Origin: Ignavibacteriaceae bacterium
GTDB lineage: Bacteria; Bacteroidota; Ignavibacteria; Ignavibacteriales; Ignavibacteriaceae
DNA length: 42,746 nt
Reading direction: 5' to 3'
Assembly: GCA_013360295.1 (NCBI GenBank)
Contig: JABWCL010000035.1
Coordinates: forward strand, 1-42,746
Part shown: piece by piece, positions 29,454 to 41,997 of the stretch
How the letters are laid out: each line of letters begins with the position of its first letter
Position numbering within the stretch: the first letter of the stretch is position 1
The notes under the pieces: model-generated
The model's input: only the letters and a program-made list of their open reading frames with translations
Database searches by the model: none
Told to the model about the DNA's origin: nothing
Program-made: the position numbers and the translations under genes

Positions 29454-29723
29454 GGCGGCAGAGTAGCGGAGCGCCGCTGATGAAGAAAAAGCTCTAAATT
29501 CAATACCGCTCCGCATATCAAAGCCACCGGAACACACTTCGACTCTGTTATTGCGGCTTCGAGCCGGTGTTCGGTTGTTTCGATATGCCATCGCTGAGTT
29601 GAAAAATGAAAAGATGCGATGGCTACTCAACAACCTTGCACGGTGCCAGGTGGCAGAGTAGCGGAGCGCCGCTGATGAAGAAAAAGCCTTAAATTCAATA
29701 CCGCTCCGCGTATCGAAGCCACC
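29454..29723. repeat. Hairpin repeat cluster, three units (plus, minus, plus)
   Basis: Units are at 29454-29528 (plus), 29573-29635 (minus) and 29649-29723 (plus). Each has outer arms (GGYGGCA/AGCCACC or GGTTGTT/AACAACC), then GAGTA on one side and TATCGA or a close variant on the other, then an inner stem and an AT-rich loop. Inner stems are GCGGAGCG/CGCTCCGC in the two outer units and GCCATCGC/GCGATGGC in the middle one. It is the same family and the same alternating order as 38610-39935. Confidence 0.85.
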
Positions 29724-37183: not shown

Positions 37184-38539
37184 ATGAACAACGAAGATAT
37201 TATCATAGCCGAAGCAACGCCGCCTGGAGCAGCCGCGATTTCCGTTATCAGATTAAGCGGGACGAACTGCATAGAGGCAGCAGACAGACTATTCAGCGGG
37301 AAGGTTAAGCTCAGTGCCGTGCCATCCCACACACTGCACTACGGAAGAATCGTAGGCCGCAATGCACAAACCATAGACGACGTGCTCGCCTCGGTCTTTC
37401 GCGAACCCAACTCCTACACCGGGGAAGATTCCGTAGAAATCAGCACACACGGTAACCCGCTTGTTACCGCCACCGTAATAAACGAGTTCCTCCAGATGGA
37501 TATTCGTATCGCTGAGCCGGGAGAATTTACCAAGCGGGCATTTCTGAACGGGAGGATAGATCTCGCCCAGGCCGAGGCCGTGATTGAGCTAATTAACTCA
37601 CGAAGCGAAGCTGCTGTCAGGGGCAGCCGCAATCAGCTTGATGGTTTACTTTCTCAAAAGATCGGAGAACTGCGGCAACAGCTGATTAATGCAGTATCGC
37701 TTGTTGAACTGGAACTCGACTTTGCAGAAGAGGACCTGGAATTTATTGATAACTCTGCAGTAATTGAACTGATCACCGGAATTAAAAAAGAGATATCAGC
37801 CTTGCTTGCAACTTACCGATTCGGAAGAGTATTCCGGGAGGGAGTTAATGTTGCTTTAGTTGGATTGCCAAATGTGGGGAAGTCCTCTGTTCTGAATCAT
37901 ATTTTAAAAGAGAGAAGAGCGATAGTCAGTCCGATTCCCGGCACCACCCGTGATATAATCCGTGAAGACGTCACTATTGATGGTGTACTTTACCGGCTAT
38001 ATGACACCGCCGGAATAAGAAATACCGAAGATCTGATTGAAAAAGAAGGTGTTGAGAGAAGCCGAAAGGCTGTCAGGGATGCCGACCTCGTTTTATTCAT
38101 TAACGAAACCGCCCACCCGTTTGACGAGTATCTCTATTTGGAATTACAGGAATTCACTTCTGAAGAAAGAATAGTAAAAGTAATCAACAAATCCGATTTG
38201 CCAGGGAAAGTAGGGGATCAGCCTGGCAGCATTCGCGTTTCTGCGCTTACCGGTGAAGGGTTTGAACAACTCTTCGACCTTATGAAAGAGCGGGCTTATG
38301 GGGGAGAGAACTACACGGAAAAAAGCATCCTCGTTTCCAGTATTCGCCATAAATCCCTGCTCGAAAAAGCGAACATCGCCCTGGAAAACGCTAAAGACTC
38401 CGCAAAACAACAAATGAGCGGGGAGTTTATATCGGTGGATATTCGGCACGCCATTAATTCTCTGGGAGAGATAATCGGGACAGTAACTACTGACGATATC
38501 CTGAACAACATATTCTCCAAATTCTGCATCGGGAAGTGA
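37184..38539 (+). CDS. mnmE: tRNA uridine-34 5-carboxymethylaminomethyl modification GTPase MnmE
   Basis: The N-terminal folate-binding domain (IIIAEATPPGAAAISVIRLSG, then GEFTKRAFLNGRIDLAQAEA) is followed by a helical domain with an inserted G domain. The G motifs are GLPNVGKSSVLN near 226-237, GTTRDI, DTAGIR and NKSD near 335. The invariant C-terminal FCIGK supplies the Cys. MnmE works with MnmG to modify wobble uridine in tRNAs. Gene and partner are usually close; here they are 1.6 kb apart because a repeat array, a GIY-YIG gene and two parS sites lie between them. There is no clear ribosome-binding site, fitting a leaderless transcript. Confidence 0.97.
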   Translation: MNNEDIIIAEATPPGAAAISVIRLSGTNCIEAADRLFSGKVKLSAVPSHTLHYGRIVGRNAQTIDDVLASVFREPNSYTGEDSVEISTHGNPLVTATVINEFLQMDIRIAEPGEFTKRAFLNGRIDLAQAEAVIELINSRSEAAVRGSRNQLDGLLSQKIGELRQQLINAVSLVELELDFAEEDLEFIDNSAVIELITGIKKEISALLATYRFGRVFREGVNVALVGLPNVGKSSVLNHILKERRAIVSPIPGTTRDIIREDVTIDGVLYRLYDTAGIRNTEDLIEKEGVERSRKAVRDADLVLFINETAHPFDEYLYLELQEFTSEERIVKVINKSDLPGKVGDQPGSIRVSALTGEGFEQLFDLMKERAYGGENYTEKSILVSSIRHKSLLEKANIALENAKDSAKQQMSGEFISVDIRHAINSLGEIIGTVTTDDILNNIFSKFCIGK

Positions 38540-38973
38540 CGTGTTTCACGTGGAACAGTTGATTTTTTCTGGTCAGTAATGTTGTTGAGTCACCCGGTCG
38601 CTGTGTGCCGGGGCTTCGATACGCGGAACGGGGAAAAGAGTTGAAAAAAGAGAAGAATTGCGGTGTTCCGCTACTCAGCCACCTGGCAATTAAGAATTAA
38701 AAATTATGAATTAAAAATATAACTCCCAGTAAGGTTGTTGAGTATCCCGACTACTTCTCATTTTTCAATTGAAGTCGGGAGTATCGAAACAACCGGTCAA
38801 TGCCACGGAGGTATCACAACGACTGACCGCTGTGTGCCGGTGGCTTCGATACGCGGAACGCAAAGAAGAATTGAGAAATGGAAAGAGTTTTGGCGCTCCG
38901 CTACTCAGCCACCTAGCGGCAGGTGAGGAAAAAATTTTAGAATTAAAAATTTTACATTATTACAGCTGCTTAT
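38540..38973. other. Intergenic: parS site and first part of the hairpin array
   Basis: After mnmE come parS (38542-38557), hairpin P1 (38610-38683), AT-rich linker (38689-38718), hairpin Q1 (38733-38794) and hairpin P2 (38839-38913), then about 60 bp leading to the GIY-YIG gene. Open frames here (for example 38735-38926) are made by the repeat and recur in its other copies. Confidence 0.75.
38542..38557. promoter_or_regulatory. parS site (ParB-binding centromere), one mismatch
   Basis: TGTTTCACGTGGAACA differs from the parS consensus TGTTTCACGTGAAACA at one base. It lies 2 bp after the mnmE stop codon. Confidence 0.82.
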
Positions 38974-39935
38974 ATGAAAGGCTATACATACATACTGCTT
39001 TGTGCTGACGGAAAATACTACACCGGTAGCACTAACGATCTCCGAAGGAGGCTGGAACAGCATCAGCTTGGAGAGGGCGCGAATTTTACCAGTAAAAGAT
39101 TACCGGTTGAGCTTGTGTATTATGAGGAGTATGAGAGAGTAGATGAAGCGTTTTATCGTGAAAAACAGATTCAGGGATGGAGTAGAAGCAAAAAAGAAGC
39201 CCTGATCTTCGGAAAAGAAAGCGCTTTACCAACTTTGGCAAAGAAGGTGTGGAAGAAGAAGTAAAAGAGATGCCTGACTCGCTATGTGCCGAGGCTTCGA
39301 TACACGGAACGCAAAGAAGAATTGAGAAATGGAAAAAGTTTTGGCGCTCCGCTACTCAGCCACCTGGTAATTAAGAATTAAAAATTATAAATTAAAAATA
39401 TAACACCCAGTAAGGTTGTTGAGTATCCCGACTACTTCTCATTTTTCAATTAAAGTCGGGAGTATCGAAACAACCGATCAATGCCACGGAGGTATCACAA
39501 CGACTGACTCGCTATGTGCCGGGGCTTCGATACGCGGAACGCAGAGAAGAATTGAGAAATGAAAAGAATAGTTGCGTTCCGCTACTCAGCCACCTGGTAA
39601 TTAAGAATTAAAAATTATAAATTAAAAATATAACACCCAGTAAGGTTGTTGAGTATCCTGACCGCTTCTCATTTTTCAATTAAAGTCGGGAGTATCGAAA
39701 CAACCGGTCAATGCCCCGGAGGTATCACAACGACTGACCGCTGTGTGTCGGTGGCTTCGATACGCGGAACGGGGAAAAGAGTTGAAAAAAGAGAAGAATT
39801 ACGGTGTTCCGCTACTCAGCCACCTGGCAATTAAGAATTAAAAATTATGAATTAAAAATATAACTCCCAGTAAGGTTGTTGAGTATCCCGACCGCTTCTC
39901 ATTCTTCAATTAAAGTCGGGAGTATCGAAACAACC
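38610..39935. repeat. 230-bp-period array of alternating hairpins P and Q, interrupted by a nuclease gene
   Basis: P hairpins (read on the minus strand) are at 38610-38683, 38839-38913, 39289-39364, 39520-39594 and 39750-39824. Q hairpins (plus strand) are at 38733-38794, 39414-39475, 39644-39705 and 39874-39935. A shared CTTCGA in P starts at 38614, 38844, 39295, 39525 and 39755, so the spacing is 230 bp except across the nuclease gene (451 bp). P has outer arms GGTGGCT/AGCCACC and inner stem GCGGAAC/GTTCCGC. Q has GGTTGTT/AACAACC and TCCCGACT/AGTCGGGA. Both carry GAGTA and TATCGA between the two stems. Linkers hold TTAAGAATTAAAAATTA-type AT-rich sequence. Confidence 0.92.
38974..39264 (+). 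CDS. GIY-YIG nuclease family protein (UPF0213/YhbQ-like)
   Basis: A single-domain 96-residue protein. The GIY-YIG core appears as YTYILLCADGKYYTGSTNDL, with Arg residues and His in RRRLEQHQ (24-31) and the likely metal-binding Glu63 in FYREKQIQGWS. A basic tail (KKVWKKK) could bind DNA. Members are stand-alone small nucleases with unclear cellular roles; the fold cuts DNA in homing enzymes and UvrC. The gene sits in the middle of the hairpin array and replaces one linker-Q stretch; nearly identical P hairpins lie on both sides. This placement suggests it belongs to a repeat-based mobile element or acts on the hairpins, which is inference. Confidence 0.9.
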   Translation: MKGYTYILLCADGKYYTGSTNDLRRRLEQHQLGEGANFTSKRLPVELVYYEEYERVDEAFYREKQIQGWSRSKKEALIFGKESALPTLAKKVWKKK

Positions 39936-40125
39936 GGTCGCAGCCACCACCGAATCGAAACGACCGACCAAAGCTATAAACGCACTAACCAACCAACCGC
40001 TTCACCGATCCACACTCCCCGTTCCATCCCCTTGTTTCCCACCTATTATTTTACGATTTTTGCAAAACTTTTTTCCATCTCTCTTTGTTTCACGTGAAAC
40101 AGCAAGGATTTAGCAATAATTTTTA
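39265..40125. other. 860-bp intergenic region: second part of hairpin array and parS
   Basis: It holds hairpins P3, Q2, P4, Q3, P5 and Q4 in exact 230-bp phase (39289-39935). A pyrimidine-rich, apparently non-coding stretch follows (about 39960-40085), then a perfect parS site just before mnmG. No gene is visible; the 60- to 73-codon frames at 39646 and 39876 are by-products of the repeat. Confidence 0.8.
40086..40101. promoter_or_regulatory. parS site (ParB-binding centromere), perfect match
   Basis: TGTTTCACGTGAAACA is an exact palindromic match to the bacterial parS consensus. It lies 24 bp before the mnmG start codon, probably inside its leader. ParB spreading from it could affect mnmG transcription. 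Confidence 0.93.
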
Positions 40126-41997
40126 ATGAATAATTTCGATATAATAGTAATCGGTGGCGGACACGCGGGAATCGAGGCGGCTTGTGCTGCTTCGAAGATG
40201 GGGTGTTCCGTTGCGCTGGTTACAATGGATAAAAACGCTATCGGGAGAATGTCGTGCAACCCGGCAATAGGGGGGACGGCCAAGGGGCACGTTGTCAGGG
40301 AGATTGATGCGCTGGGGGGGGTAATGGGCTTAATTGCAGACCGGTCGGGCATTCAGTTTAGAATGCTTAATCGTTCAAAGGGACCTGCGGTGTGGTCACC
40401 CAGAAGTCAGAATGACAGGAAACTCTATTCCGAAGAAGCGATTCGTGTGATTGATTCGCACAAGAACATTACGGTTGTAAAGGAATCGGTGACTGGAATA
40501 AACACCGAAGATGGAAAAGTAACCGGGGTTACAACTATTGAAGGACACTCCATTTCCGCGAAGGCCGTTATCCTCTGCTCCGGAACTTTCCTGAACGGGT
40601 TAATGCACACAGGACTCAACCAGTTTGAAGGGGGGAGATATGGTGAGCAGAAGGCTATTGGCATAACCGAATCTCTGGTGGGCCTGGGATTTGAAGCGGG
40701 GAGGCTGAAGACCGGAACACCACCTCGCCTGCACAAAGATTCAATTGACTGGGATGCTCTTGAGGTTCAGTCGGGAGATGATGACCCGCAGCCGTTTTCA
40801 TTCCGTACTCCACGCAGTGAGTTTCCATATCAACCGCAGTTAAGTTGTCACATAACCCACACCGATGTTAATGTTCATAATATTTTAGAAACAGGTTTTC
40901 ATCAGTCGCCTCTTTTTACCGGAGTAATCGGTGGTGTGGGGCCAAGATATTGCCCGTCAATAGAGGACAAAATAGTCCGATTTAACGATAAACCCAGGCA
41001 CCAGTTATTTCTTGAACCGGAAGGGCTTGATTCGGAGCTAATATATGTTAACGGTTTCTCCACCTCGCTTCCGGCAGAAGTGCAGGATAAAGCGTTGCGG
41101 TTAGTTCCCGGTCTAAAAGATATGAAGATGGTGCGTCCTGGTTACGCTGTTGAATATGACTTCTTCCCGCCCCACCAGGTTGATTTAACTCTTGAGACAA
41201 AACGAGTGCGCGGGTTATACTTCGCGGGACAAGTGAACGGAACATCGGGATATGAAGAAGCAGCCGCGCAGGGCTTGGTTGCGGGGATAAACGCCGCGGC
41301 AAAAATTCTTGGTAAAAAAGAATTTGTACTTAAAAGAAGTGAAGCCTATATCGGAGTTATGGTGGATGACCTTGTCAATAAATCAACAGACGAACCTTAC
41401 AGGATATTTACTTCGAGGGCGGAACACAGGCTGCTGCTGCGCCAGGATAACGCCGACCGCAGGCTCTCACAGTACGGACACTATTATGGTCTGATAGAAG
41501 ACGAACATAATGAAGAGATCAGGATGAGGAGTGAAAAAATATCCGTGGGCATTGAAATCCTCTCCAGAAAAAAAATTAAGCCCGCCGATATCAATCCCGT
41601 GCTTCATTCAAAAGAGGCGGATCTGATTGACACCCCGGAGGCCATATCCAAATTATGCAAGCGTCCTGAGCTTCAGCTCGAAGAAATTCTTGCCCTTACT
41701 AACGGTGACGAGGAGCTTGCAACAATAAAGAATGATAAATATGCCGTTGAACAGATTGAAATCGAGTTAAAGTACGAGGGCTATATCAAGAGGCAGTTTG
41801 ACCAGGTGGAGAAGATGGAAAAATACGAAGGGTTAAGGATCCCGGCCACATTAGATTACGCAAAGGTAAAAGCCCTTTCCACAGAGGGGCGCGAGAAACT
41901 GCTCAAAGTTCAACCCCGGTCTATCGGCCAGGCATCAAGAATATCTGGAGTAACCCCTTCAGATATTTCAGTTTTATTGGTATATTTAAAGAAGTAA
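40126..41997 (+). CDS. mnmG: tRNA uridine-34 5-carboxymethylaminomethyl modification enzyme MnmG
   Basis: The FAD-binding Rossmann motif IVIGGGHAGIEAA is at 7-19, followed by family blocks MSCNPAIGGTAKGH and GLKTGTPPRL-like RLKTGTPPRLHKDS. GTSGYEEAAAQGLVAGINAA lies in the middle, and a helical C-terminal domain binds MnmE and tRNA (YEGYIKRQFDQVEKM). The 623-residue length is standard. With MnmE it makes cmnm5U34 or nm5U34 in tRNAs. rsmG follows after 39 bp and is probably co-transcribed. Confidence 0.98.
   Translation: MNNFDIIVIGGGHAGIEAACAASKMGCSVALVTMDKNAIGRMSCNPAIGGTAKGHVVREIDALGGVMGLIADRSGIQFRMLNRSKGPAVWSPRSQNDRKLYSEEAIRVIDSHKNITVVKESVTGINTEDGKVTGVTTIEGHSISAKAVILCSGTFLNGLMHTGLNQFEGGRYGEQKAIGITESLVGLGFEAGRLKTGTPPRLHKDSIDWDALEVQSGDDDPQPFSFRTPRSEFPYQPQLSCHITHTDVNVHNILETGFHQSPLFTGVIGGVGPRYCPSIEDKIVRFNDKPRHQLFLEPEGLDSELIYVNGFSTSLPAEVQDKALRLVPGLKDMKMVRPGYAVEYDFFPPHQVDLTLETKRVRGLYFAGQVNGTSGYEEAAAQGLVAGINAAAKILGKKEFVLKRSEAYIGVMVDDLVNKSTDEPYRIFTSRAEHRLLLRQDNADRRLSQYGHYYGLIEDEHNEEIRMRSEKISVGIEILSRKKIKPADINPVLHSKEADLIDTPEAISKLCKRPELQLEEILALTNGDEELATIKNDKYAVEQIEIELKYEGYIKRQFDQVEKMEKYEGLRIPATLDYAKVKALSTEGREKLLKVQPRSIGQASRISGVTPSDISVLLVYLKK

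Follow-up and report, generated by a model that had tools for sequence, protein, structure and literature searches.

REP-like DNA hairpins cluster beside genes for small GIY-YIG nucleases, their probable partners

A two-tier hairpin array lying between mnmE and mnmG of an Ignavibacteriaceae bacterium encloses a gene for a small GIY-YIG nuclease, and hairpins with the same core are strongly linked to relatives of that gene in several phyla, the class of hairpin tracking the clade of nuclease. The nuclease is probably the partner of the hairpins and may be what spreads them. New here are the nuclease gene inside the array and its link to the hairpin family; an earlier note, made from the DNA letters alone, had described the hairpins without their core and its direction, the nuclease open reading frame in the interval, the placing of the two unit types on opposite strands or the spread over several phyla.

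The window, a whole contig (C78) of 42,746 nucleotides, belongs to a draft genome of 4.46 Mb in 92 contigs and holds 12 two-tier hairpins, seven of type P and five of type Q, all present where the earlier note had placed them. Nine fall within 38609–39935, flanked by mnmE (37184–38539) and mnmG (40126–41997). This main array opens with P at 38609–38683 (−; arms GGTGGCT/AGCCCCG, core GAGTA...GTATCGA), Q at 38733–38794 (+; arms GGTTGTT/AACAACC, inner stem TCCCGACT/AGTCGGGA) and P at 38839–38913 (−), followed by the nuclease gene (38974–39264, +), and it continues with P at 39290–39364 (−), Q at 39414–39475 (+), P at 39520–39594 (−), Q at 39644–39705 (+), P at 39750–39824 (−) and Q at 39874–39935 (+), the last adjoined by a degenerate half-element (GGTCGCAGCCACCACCGAATCGAAACGACC, 39936–39965, +). 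The other three units form a second array without a nuclease gene at 29454–29723, composed of P at 29454–29528 (+), Q at 29573–29635 (−; inner stem GCCATCGC/GCGATGGC) and P at 29649–29723 (+), and P and Q stand on opposite strands in both arrays. Interleaved with the hairpins is an AT-rich repeat of about 30 bp (TTAAGAATTAAAAATTATGAATTA; 38690, 38936, 39371, 39601 and 39831), which also occurs at many other sites of the genome.

Each unit has, from the outside in, an outer stem of roughly 7 bp, GA/TC pairs together with a two-base bulge, and then the inner stem, closed by a loop that is mostly rich in pyrimidines; GAGTA and TATCGA are near-invariant across all units of the genome. The letters quoted earlier for the stems are correct: the outer arms differ between P (GGTGGCT/AGCCACC) and Q (GGTTGTT/AACAACC) yet pair in both, and the inner stems occur as TCCCGACT/AGTCGGGA or GCCATCGC/GCGATGGC in Q and as GCGGAACG/CGTTCCGC or GCGGAGCG/CGCTCCGC in P. 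Some copies are imperfect: in units 38839 and 39290 GCGGAGCG stands opposite CGTTCCGC or CGTTCCGT (a one-sided change giving G–T), and three P units end in CCCCG or CCTCG. As in REPs generally, the units are short intergenic palindromes, dispersed and often in inverted pairs. A search of the same genome yielded 11 more units, on contigs C17, C3, C71, C72, C25 and C16, which brings its total to at least 23.

These 23 units were aligned and scored on the two-tier structure against 500 shuffles. Paired cells (89.9% vs 75.1% in shuffles), cells changed on both sides (61 vs 25.9) and the covariation score (0.422 vs 0.165) were matched by none of the 500, and pairing fell to 33–51% when partner columns were slid by 1–3; six of the seven inner pairs carry changes on both sides. 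Two further measures were weak, namely the number of pairs having a both-sided change (8 vs 6.5; 25/500) and that of further pair types (17 vs 16.6; 285/500). The two units tried in DNA folding gave z-scores of −2.9 and −2.7. Because this signal is largely the split between P and Q, the cells are not independent events and the stronger test comes from outside the genome. A set of 272 elements, drawn from 75 of the 80 nuclease loci described below, includes 103 in which 4 nt separate the two halves of the core; the closing pair of this spacer, a position that played no part in selection, is Watson–Crick in 99 (CG 45, GC 42, TA 12), against 40.3 expected from column composition. The data show that pairing of the hairpin is under selection and that covariation extends past the genome of origin, in support of the earlier proposal of a REP-like family selected for folding. 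DNA is favoured over RNA as the acting form on indirect arguments only, the occurrence of both orientations and the alternation of copies.

The open reading frame at 38974–39264 encodes a protein of 96 aa with a GIY-YIG domain (PF01541, 70.8 bits), in which Y6, Y16, R26 and E63, presumably the catalytic residues as in other GIY-YIG nucleases, are invariant over 25 aligned sequences. Its structure model (pLDDT 87, pTM 0.76) and its sequence both have the UPF0213 proteins 1zg2 and 1ywl as nearest solved structures; Slx1 follows by structure search only, above an E-value of 0.001, and its entry titles mention how branched DNA is recognised and processed. Relatives at E ≤ 1e-15 occur patchily, in 56 of 296 genomes of the phylum with the genome of origin included, and the nearest, at 72–75% identity, come from outside the window's family, a pattern that suggests horizontal transfer. 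NCBIfam gave no specific name for the nuclease. A defence-system identity was dropped, PADLOC having returned one weak match (13.5 bits) for the protein of subfamily B, introduced below, and none for those of the other two subfamilies; an origin from phages or plasmids was dropped as well, with only weak relatives (<60% identity) in 8 plasmid and 15 phage records. Two other small GIY-YIG genes of the same genome, on contig C48, have no hairpin element within the 3.6 kb examined. These two lie in tandem after an apparent tRNA gene (L043:1400-2200), with a copy of the tRNA's 3′ part behind each of them, an arrangement like that of a tRNA-associated homing element.

The family is defined by an asymmetric core, with TGAG in its 5′ half and YCGAA in its 3′ half, set within freely changing arms. 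Elements were required to have 6-nt arms with at least five of six positions paired, G–T allowed; this rule forces pairing, and arm pairing is therefore excluded as evidence. In a first set of 29 loci, TGAG...TCGAA with such arms gave 94 matches (overlaps counted) in 22 loci, while 60 permuted cores gave a mean of 1.6 matches and a maximum of 6. The strict core was set on these loci beforehand, the maximum spacing later being lowered from 100 to 90 and overlaps merged, and it was then scored in 80 loci, the best 80 of at least 552 nuclease relatives in a profile scan, from Bacteroidota, Ignavibacteria, Calditrichia, Kapaibacterium, Leptospiraceae, Termititenax, Fibrobacter, Sulfurovum, Desulfoprunum, Cyanobacteria, Chloroflexota (Anaerolineae, Roseilinea), Verrucomicrobia and Proteobacteria. 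The two sets overlap, L116 and L139 apparently being L062 and L064. A strict-core element lies within 1 kb of the nuclease gene in 57 of the 80 loci, a few of them resting on one long, probably chance match (e.g. L100, L155), whereas 40 permuted cores reach a mean of 2.7 loci and a maximum of 12. Element density falls with distance from the gene, from 3.90/kb at 0–250 bp through 0.74, 0.16, 0.086 and 0.068 to 0.033/kb at 5–10 kb, a difference of about 100-fold; in intergenic DNA alone, with genes taken as open reading frames of at least 90 codons from ATG rather than from annotation, it is 5.17/kb within 250 bp against 0.17/kb past 1 kb. Loci with an element rise to 70 of 80 when CCGAA is added and to 75 when CGAG...YCGAG is also admitted, both counts and the 272-element set being post hoc, since these variants were chosen after inspection of loci without a match. 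Of 27 single-base changes to the core, T-to-C at YCGAA alone shows a strong near-gene excess (80 near, 37 far), the next-best change giving 19 near and 43 far.

The 272 elements are diverse in their arms (80 left arms, 148 arm pairs) and regular in their arrangement. Neighbouring units on one side of the gene alternate in orientation in 101 of 143 cases (P = 9e-7), and 92 of these 101 alternating neighbours have different arms. The plan [<P >Q] gene [<P >Q] recurs around the nuclease; the gene-adjacent unit points to the gene at 40 of 61 loci on the left and 45 of 63 on the right. Pairing reaches slightly beyond the 6-nt arms, position 7 being paired in 117 of 272 elements against 83.5 expected, and is near expectation from position 8. 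Where the spacer is 5 nt long it reads CGNAG in 113 of 115 elements, and C-GNA-G forms an unusually stable DNA mini-hairpin. Such a mini-hairpin in the spacer is a hint only: just 9 of 54 longer spacers have a GNA loop closed by a stem of at least 3, and when two short model elements were folded as DNA the spacer stayed open. The 5-nt spacer pair hardly varies (114 seen, 114.0 expected) and so says nothing on covariation.

In a tree built from 104 nucleases, of which 97 have elements, the hairpins switch arm type (G- or TC-type) once, where shuffles give 6.8 switches, and spacer class changes 29 times against 41.2 (86 loci; none of 200 shuffles as low). The choice of T or C in YCGAA carries no signal on this tree (18 changes vs 19.9), which counts against a tie to the nuclease; the nuclease trees are short (90–93 columns) and weakly resolved. 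The TC-type clade is here called subfamily B, and a follow-up search with one of its members gave 17 further loci, of which L216, L228 and L229 are shorter than 3.2 kb and have an assumed gene place. Elements were found at 11 of the 17 and were mostly TC-type at all 11, with some TT arms at L214 and one TA arm at L233; the other six had none. Of 59 TC/TT-type elements in 17 subfamily-B loci, 55 start with NGTC (TGTC 31, CGTC 14, AGTC 10). Linked elements were scarcer among 30 Pseudomonadota loci taken by PF01541 score alone, being present at seven, which again counts against a partnership: GAG-core elements were seen at L288, L291, L299 (apparently the locus of L154) and L306, and CGTC-type REPs at L300, L301 and L305. 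A looser GTC scan of these 30 loci did not rise above all control tags.

A search with the L305 nuclease gave 30 loci, termed subfamily C, the query matching in 72 of 299 genomes. Under a strict definition of the CGTC element (GTC, a stem from AT with at least 7 of 8 pairs, a loop of 3–6), 15 of the 28 loci with full flanks have one within 400 bp of the nuclease gene, ten of them on both sides; L318 is the query locus L305, which had been picked for its CGTC REPs; counted independently of it, the figure is 14 of 27. L323 and L326, excluded for short flanks, both carry CGTC elements. In genic and intergenic DNA together, 34 elements lie within 400 bp and 4 beyond 600 bp. The 63 control tags average 0.78 near these genes, and TGG reaches 34 because it reads the same CGTC elements from the opposite strand, the next tag reaching 2.

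A joint tree of 166 proteins recovers the three subfamilies as forks of 97, 25 and 30 rows with support of 94, 82 and 97, the 25-row fork including Pseudomonadota loci with TC-type elements. Hairpin class changes four times over the 127 labelled loci of this tree, against a mean of 33.1 and a minimum of 29 in 200 shuffles; 39 unlabelled rows are not counted and seven loci without a usable protein were dropped. L292 and L296 look misaligned, the label of L296 coming from a single 55-nt match, and L319 and L345 bear a G-type label within the CGTC clade. A fourth nuclease group, identified once the tree was built, has elements at none of its 12 loci; a fork with support of 88 unites 11 of them, L295 attaches weakly (32), and L304 sits on a very long branch.

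We consider it likely that these are REP systems that have a clade of small stand-alone GIY-YIG nucleases as their dedicated partner, the enzyme acting on the hairpin in its folded form; the cutting and the mobility are the conjectural part. The elements are REP-like imperfect palindromes with the core TGAG/YCGAA and with arms of many sequences, provided they pair, and each would fold when the DNA is single-stranded or extruded. The nuclease would recognise the fold together with the core and cut there, and repair or strand transfer would then copy P–Q units to new sites, much as RAYT transposases are supposed to act on GTAG REPs; the substrate would be DNA rather than RNA. Given an asymmetric core within a fold, an enzyme that cuts hairpins followed by copying through repair is the simplest account. 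We lean somewhat towards a wider proposal, in which small GIY-YIG nucleases are the mobilising enzymes of a second, non-RAYT REP world made up of the CGTC superfamily and the untagged TGAG...YCGAA family, that is, mobile DNA moving by enzyme-cut hairpins and co-evolving with its enzyme over a large part of the bacterial tree.

GIY-YIG domains are typical of homing enzymes, and the nuclease could instead be a homing-type parasite that landed on pre-existing REP hairpins while the hairpins spread otherwise. We regard this as unlikely. It would likewise yield both the linkage and the match between clades; there is also a weak match, far below the cut-off, to a group I intron endonuclease model, elements exist without a nuclease gene, and insertion sequences are reported to target REPs (PMC1525189). 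Evidence against it comes first from the gene flanks, where P–Q modules often stand on both sides and so exceed what one split landing site would leave, and second from hsdR, the gene for subunit R of type I restriction systems. In three hsdR genes a nuclease domain is inserted in frame, from FQTFM to YFGEYP: L140:9119-11809 (a Flavobacteriaceae MAG), L147:8507-11245 (a Verrucomicrobia MAG) and L067:1-2784 on the minus strand (G109, from the window's class), a sample of which two of three are thus MAGs. The insert occupies the same loop in the helicase part of these EcoAI/FtnUII-type proteins in all three genomes, two of them assigned to different phyla, and the common site suggests that a single insertion event was followed by transfer. 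Its ends form a recognisable palindrome, mostly decayed, with a scored element only at one end in L147 and none at the ends in L140 and L067. Four uninterrupted HsdR homologues, of 257 matching plasmid records, have a short loop at this site and no palindrome, so nuclease and palindrome remnants appear to have arrived together. A further GIY-YIG domain lies in an open frame of 1483 codons (G472:C133:28981-29199) and may likewise have been inserted into a large gene.

Dispersed copies bear on the same choice. Across the 296 genomes, an excess of at least 8 pattern matches was found in 28 of 52 with a strong nuclease hit, 32 of 110 with a weak one and 21 of 134 with none (Mann–Whitney, strong vs none P = 9e-8, weak vs none P = 0.004, uncorrected for descent). 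The nuclease score is imperfect both ways, as G194, one of seven element-rich 'nuclease-less' genomes, has a small GIY-YIG hit of 97 codons. More than 100 matches occur in five of the 296 genomes, and copy number in the genome of origin is low. In ten of ten genomes outside Bacteroidota, drawn from the 80 loci, the pattern exceeds its reversed control, from 133 vs 3 (G302), 128 vs 5 (G298) and 73 vs 0 (G300) down to small excesses such as 6 vs 2 (G296) and 16 vs 7 (G304). Eight of 20 stretches read at pattern matches in five other genomes have no arm-paired element, so such counts include chance or decayed copies. Several observations count against a partnership with the nuclease: 14 of the 23 units in the genome of origin lie away from the nuclease gene; only 5 of 31 elements at 19 dispersed places examined in G302 share the arms of its nuclease locus; and G002, with 221 matches and an inferred 110 or so inverted pairs (30 loci read), has no detected small GIY-YIG gene, its two PF01541 matches being part of long frames (609 and 460 codons). 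The REPIN-like inverted pairs of G002 (L173-L202) are often nested in a second palindrome family, GTCATTGCGAGGAACGAAGCAATC. Copies that lack a nuclease, ride in a MITE or have mismatched arms fit loss of the enzyme after spread, other carriers, or a nuclease landing on repeats.

Passive spread, by riding other mobile DNA or by recombination and tandem duplication, is already partly true, for some copies. In Oculatella (G299, L240-L245), six dispersed pairs sit in a MITE of about 130 bp with inverted ends GAATGGCACTGAAA..., the TGAG...TCGAA pair being central and in both orientations and the target duplications, by eye, apparently 8–10 bp. These pairs ride in the MITE and so spread by another route; having been considered as nuclease-driven dispersal, they were dropped once the DNA showed the MITE. 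Tandem copies are spaced at 230 bp in the window and recur on C72 of the same genome, and seven copies away from the gene in that genome show, by eye, neither MITE-type terminal repeats nor target duplications. As an account of the whole family, passive spread is very improbable, leaving unexplained the clustering of elements of matching class at one family of genes across many phyla.

Still harder to credit are ordinary GTAG-type REPs moved by a RAYT or an IS200-like Y1 transposase, even though size, dimers and alternating orientation are REP-like, the genome of origin has three PF01797 genes, and L140, among the 80 loci, has a Y1-like gene at a distance of about 1.1 kb. A relative of the L140 Y1 protein occurs at L140 itself and at no other of the 80 loci, in a search with this one query that a divergent Y1 could escape, and the three Y1 genes of the genome of origin are not near known elements, the closest being about 22 kb off on C25; on these two findings RAYT was dropped as the mobiliser. 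The elements also have no terminal GTAG tag: units start with GGT or GGC and end with ACC or CCG, the ends are mostly paired, and GTAG appears only internally in some window units (GAGTAG). Least probable of all are terminators or mRNA-stability hairpins regulating the nuclease gene or its neighbours, which stable intergenic hairpins near a gene might bring to mind but which would not call for a cross-phylum core with a class that changes by nuclease clade and which sit badly with elements in both orientations, on both gene sides, in gene-less places and as in-frame remnants in hsdR. With no Rfam match in the window at gathering score, an RNA family was dropped too.

REPs are common bacterial repeats, and the mobiliser of the CGTC class is left open in the paper that defined it (PMC3733652). 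The clade-by-clade match with one nuclease family makes that family a concrete candidate for the part, one that can be tested on a protein of some 96 residues with hairpins 25–75 nt long; if it holds, many small genes annotated merely as 'GIY-YIG nuclease family protein' would gain a role. Among the open-access papers listed in literature searches, none connects GIY-YIG nucleases with REPs in its title or the opening of its abstract. The term GIY is absent from the text of PMC3733652 and from PMC12306157, and PMC9465073 names GIY-YIG and RAYT as separate genes in a list.

Among known systems, the nuclease shares its fold by sequence and structure with the UPF0213 proteins (1zg2, 1ywl), and by structure alone, above an E-value of 0.001, with Slx1; the repeat-linked clades differ from both in being stand-alone proteins of about 95 residues. 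The closest parallel in organisation is that of the GTAG REPs and REPINs with their RAYTs (REPtrons), in which alternating palindrome pairs likewise surround the gene of a small DNA-processing enzyme. For RAYTs, too, the class of element follows the clade of enzyme. The enzyme there is an HUH tyrosine transposase and the elements carry a GTAG tag, whereas here it is a GIY-YIG nuclease and GTAG tags are lacking. Rickettsia palindromic elements resemble the three hsdR remnants as in-frame palindromes within genes, and R. conorii RPE-4 and RPE-6 are assigned to the CGTC class in PMC3733652, the source of this link. The CGTC REPs themselves are apparently without a dedicated transposase and not associated with transposase genes (PMC3733652, 2013). 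Compared with their published description, the window's units differ from them: they have no CGTC, TGTC or CCTC tag, and their G-type arms, two tiers and TGAG...YCGAA core contrast with a stem of 8–9 bp from AT and a loop of 4–5 nt. Like the present family, CGTC REPs are short palindromes that form dimers, have some intragenic copies and occur in several phyla; subfamily-B elements share their NGTC tag, and those flanking subfamily-C nucleases fit the description in tag, 8-bp stem from AT, 4–5-nt loop and CCA tail (PMC3733652).
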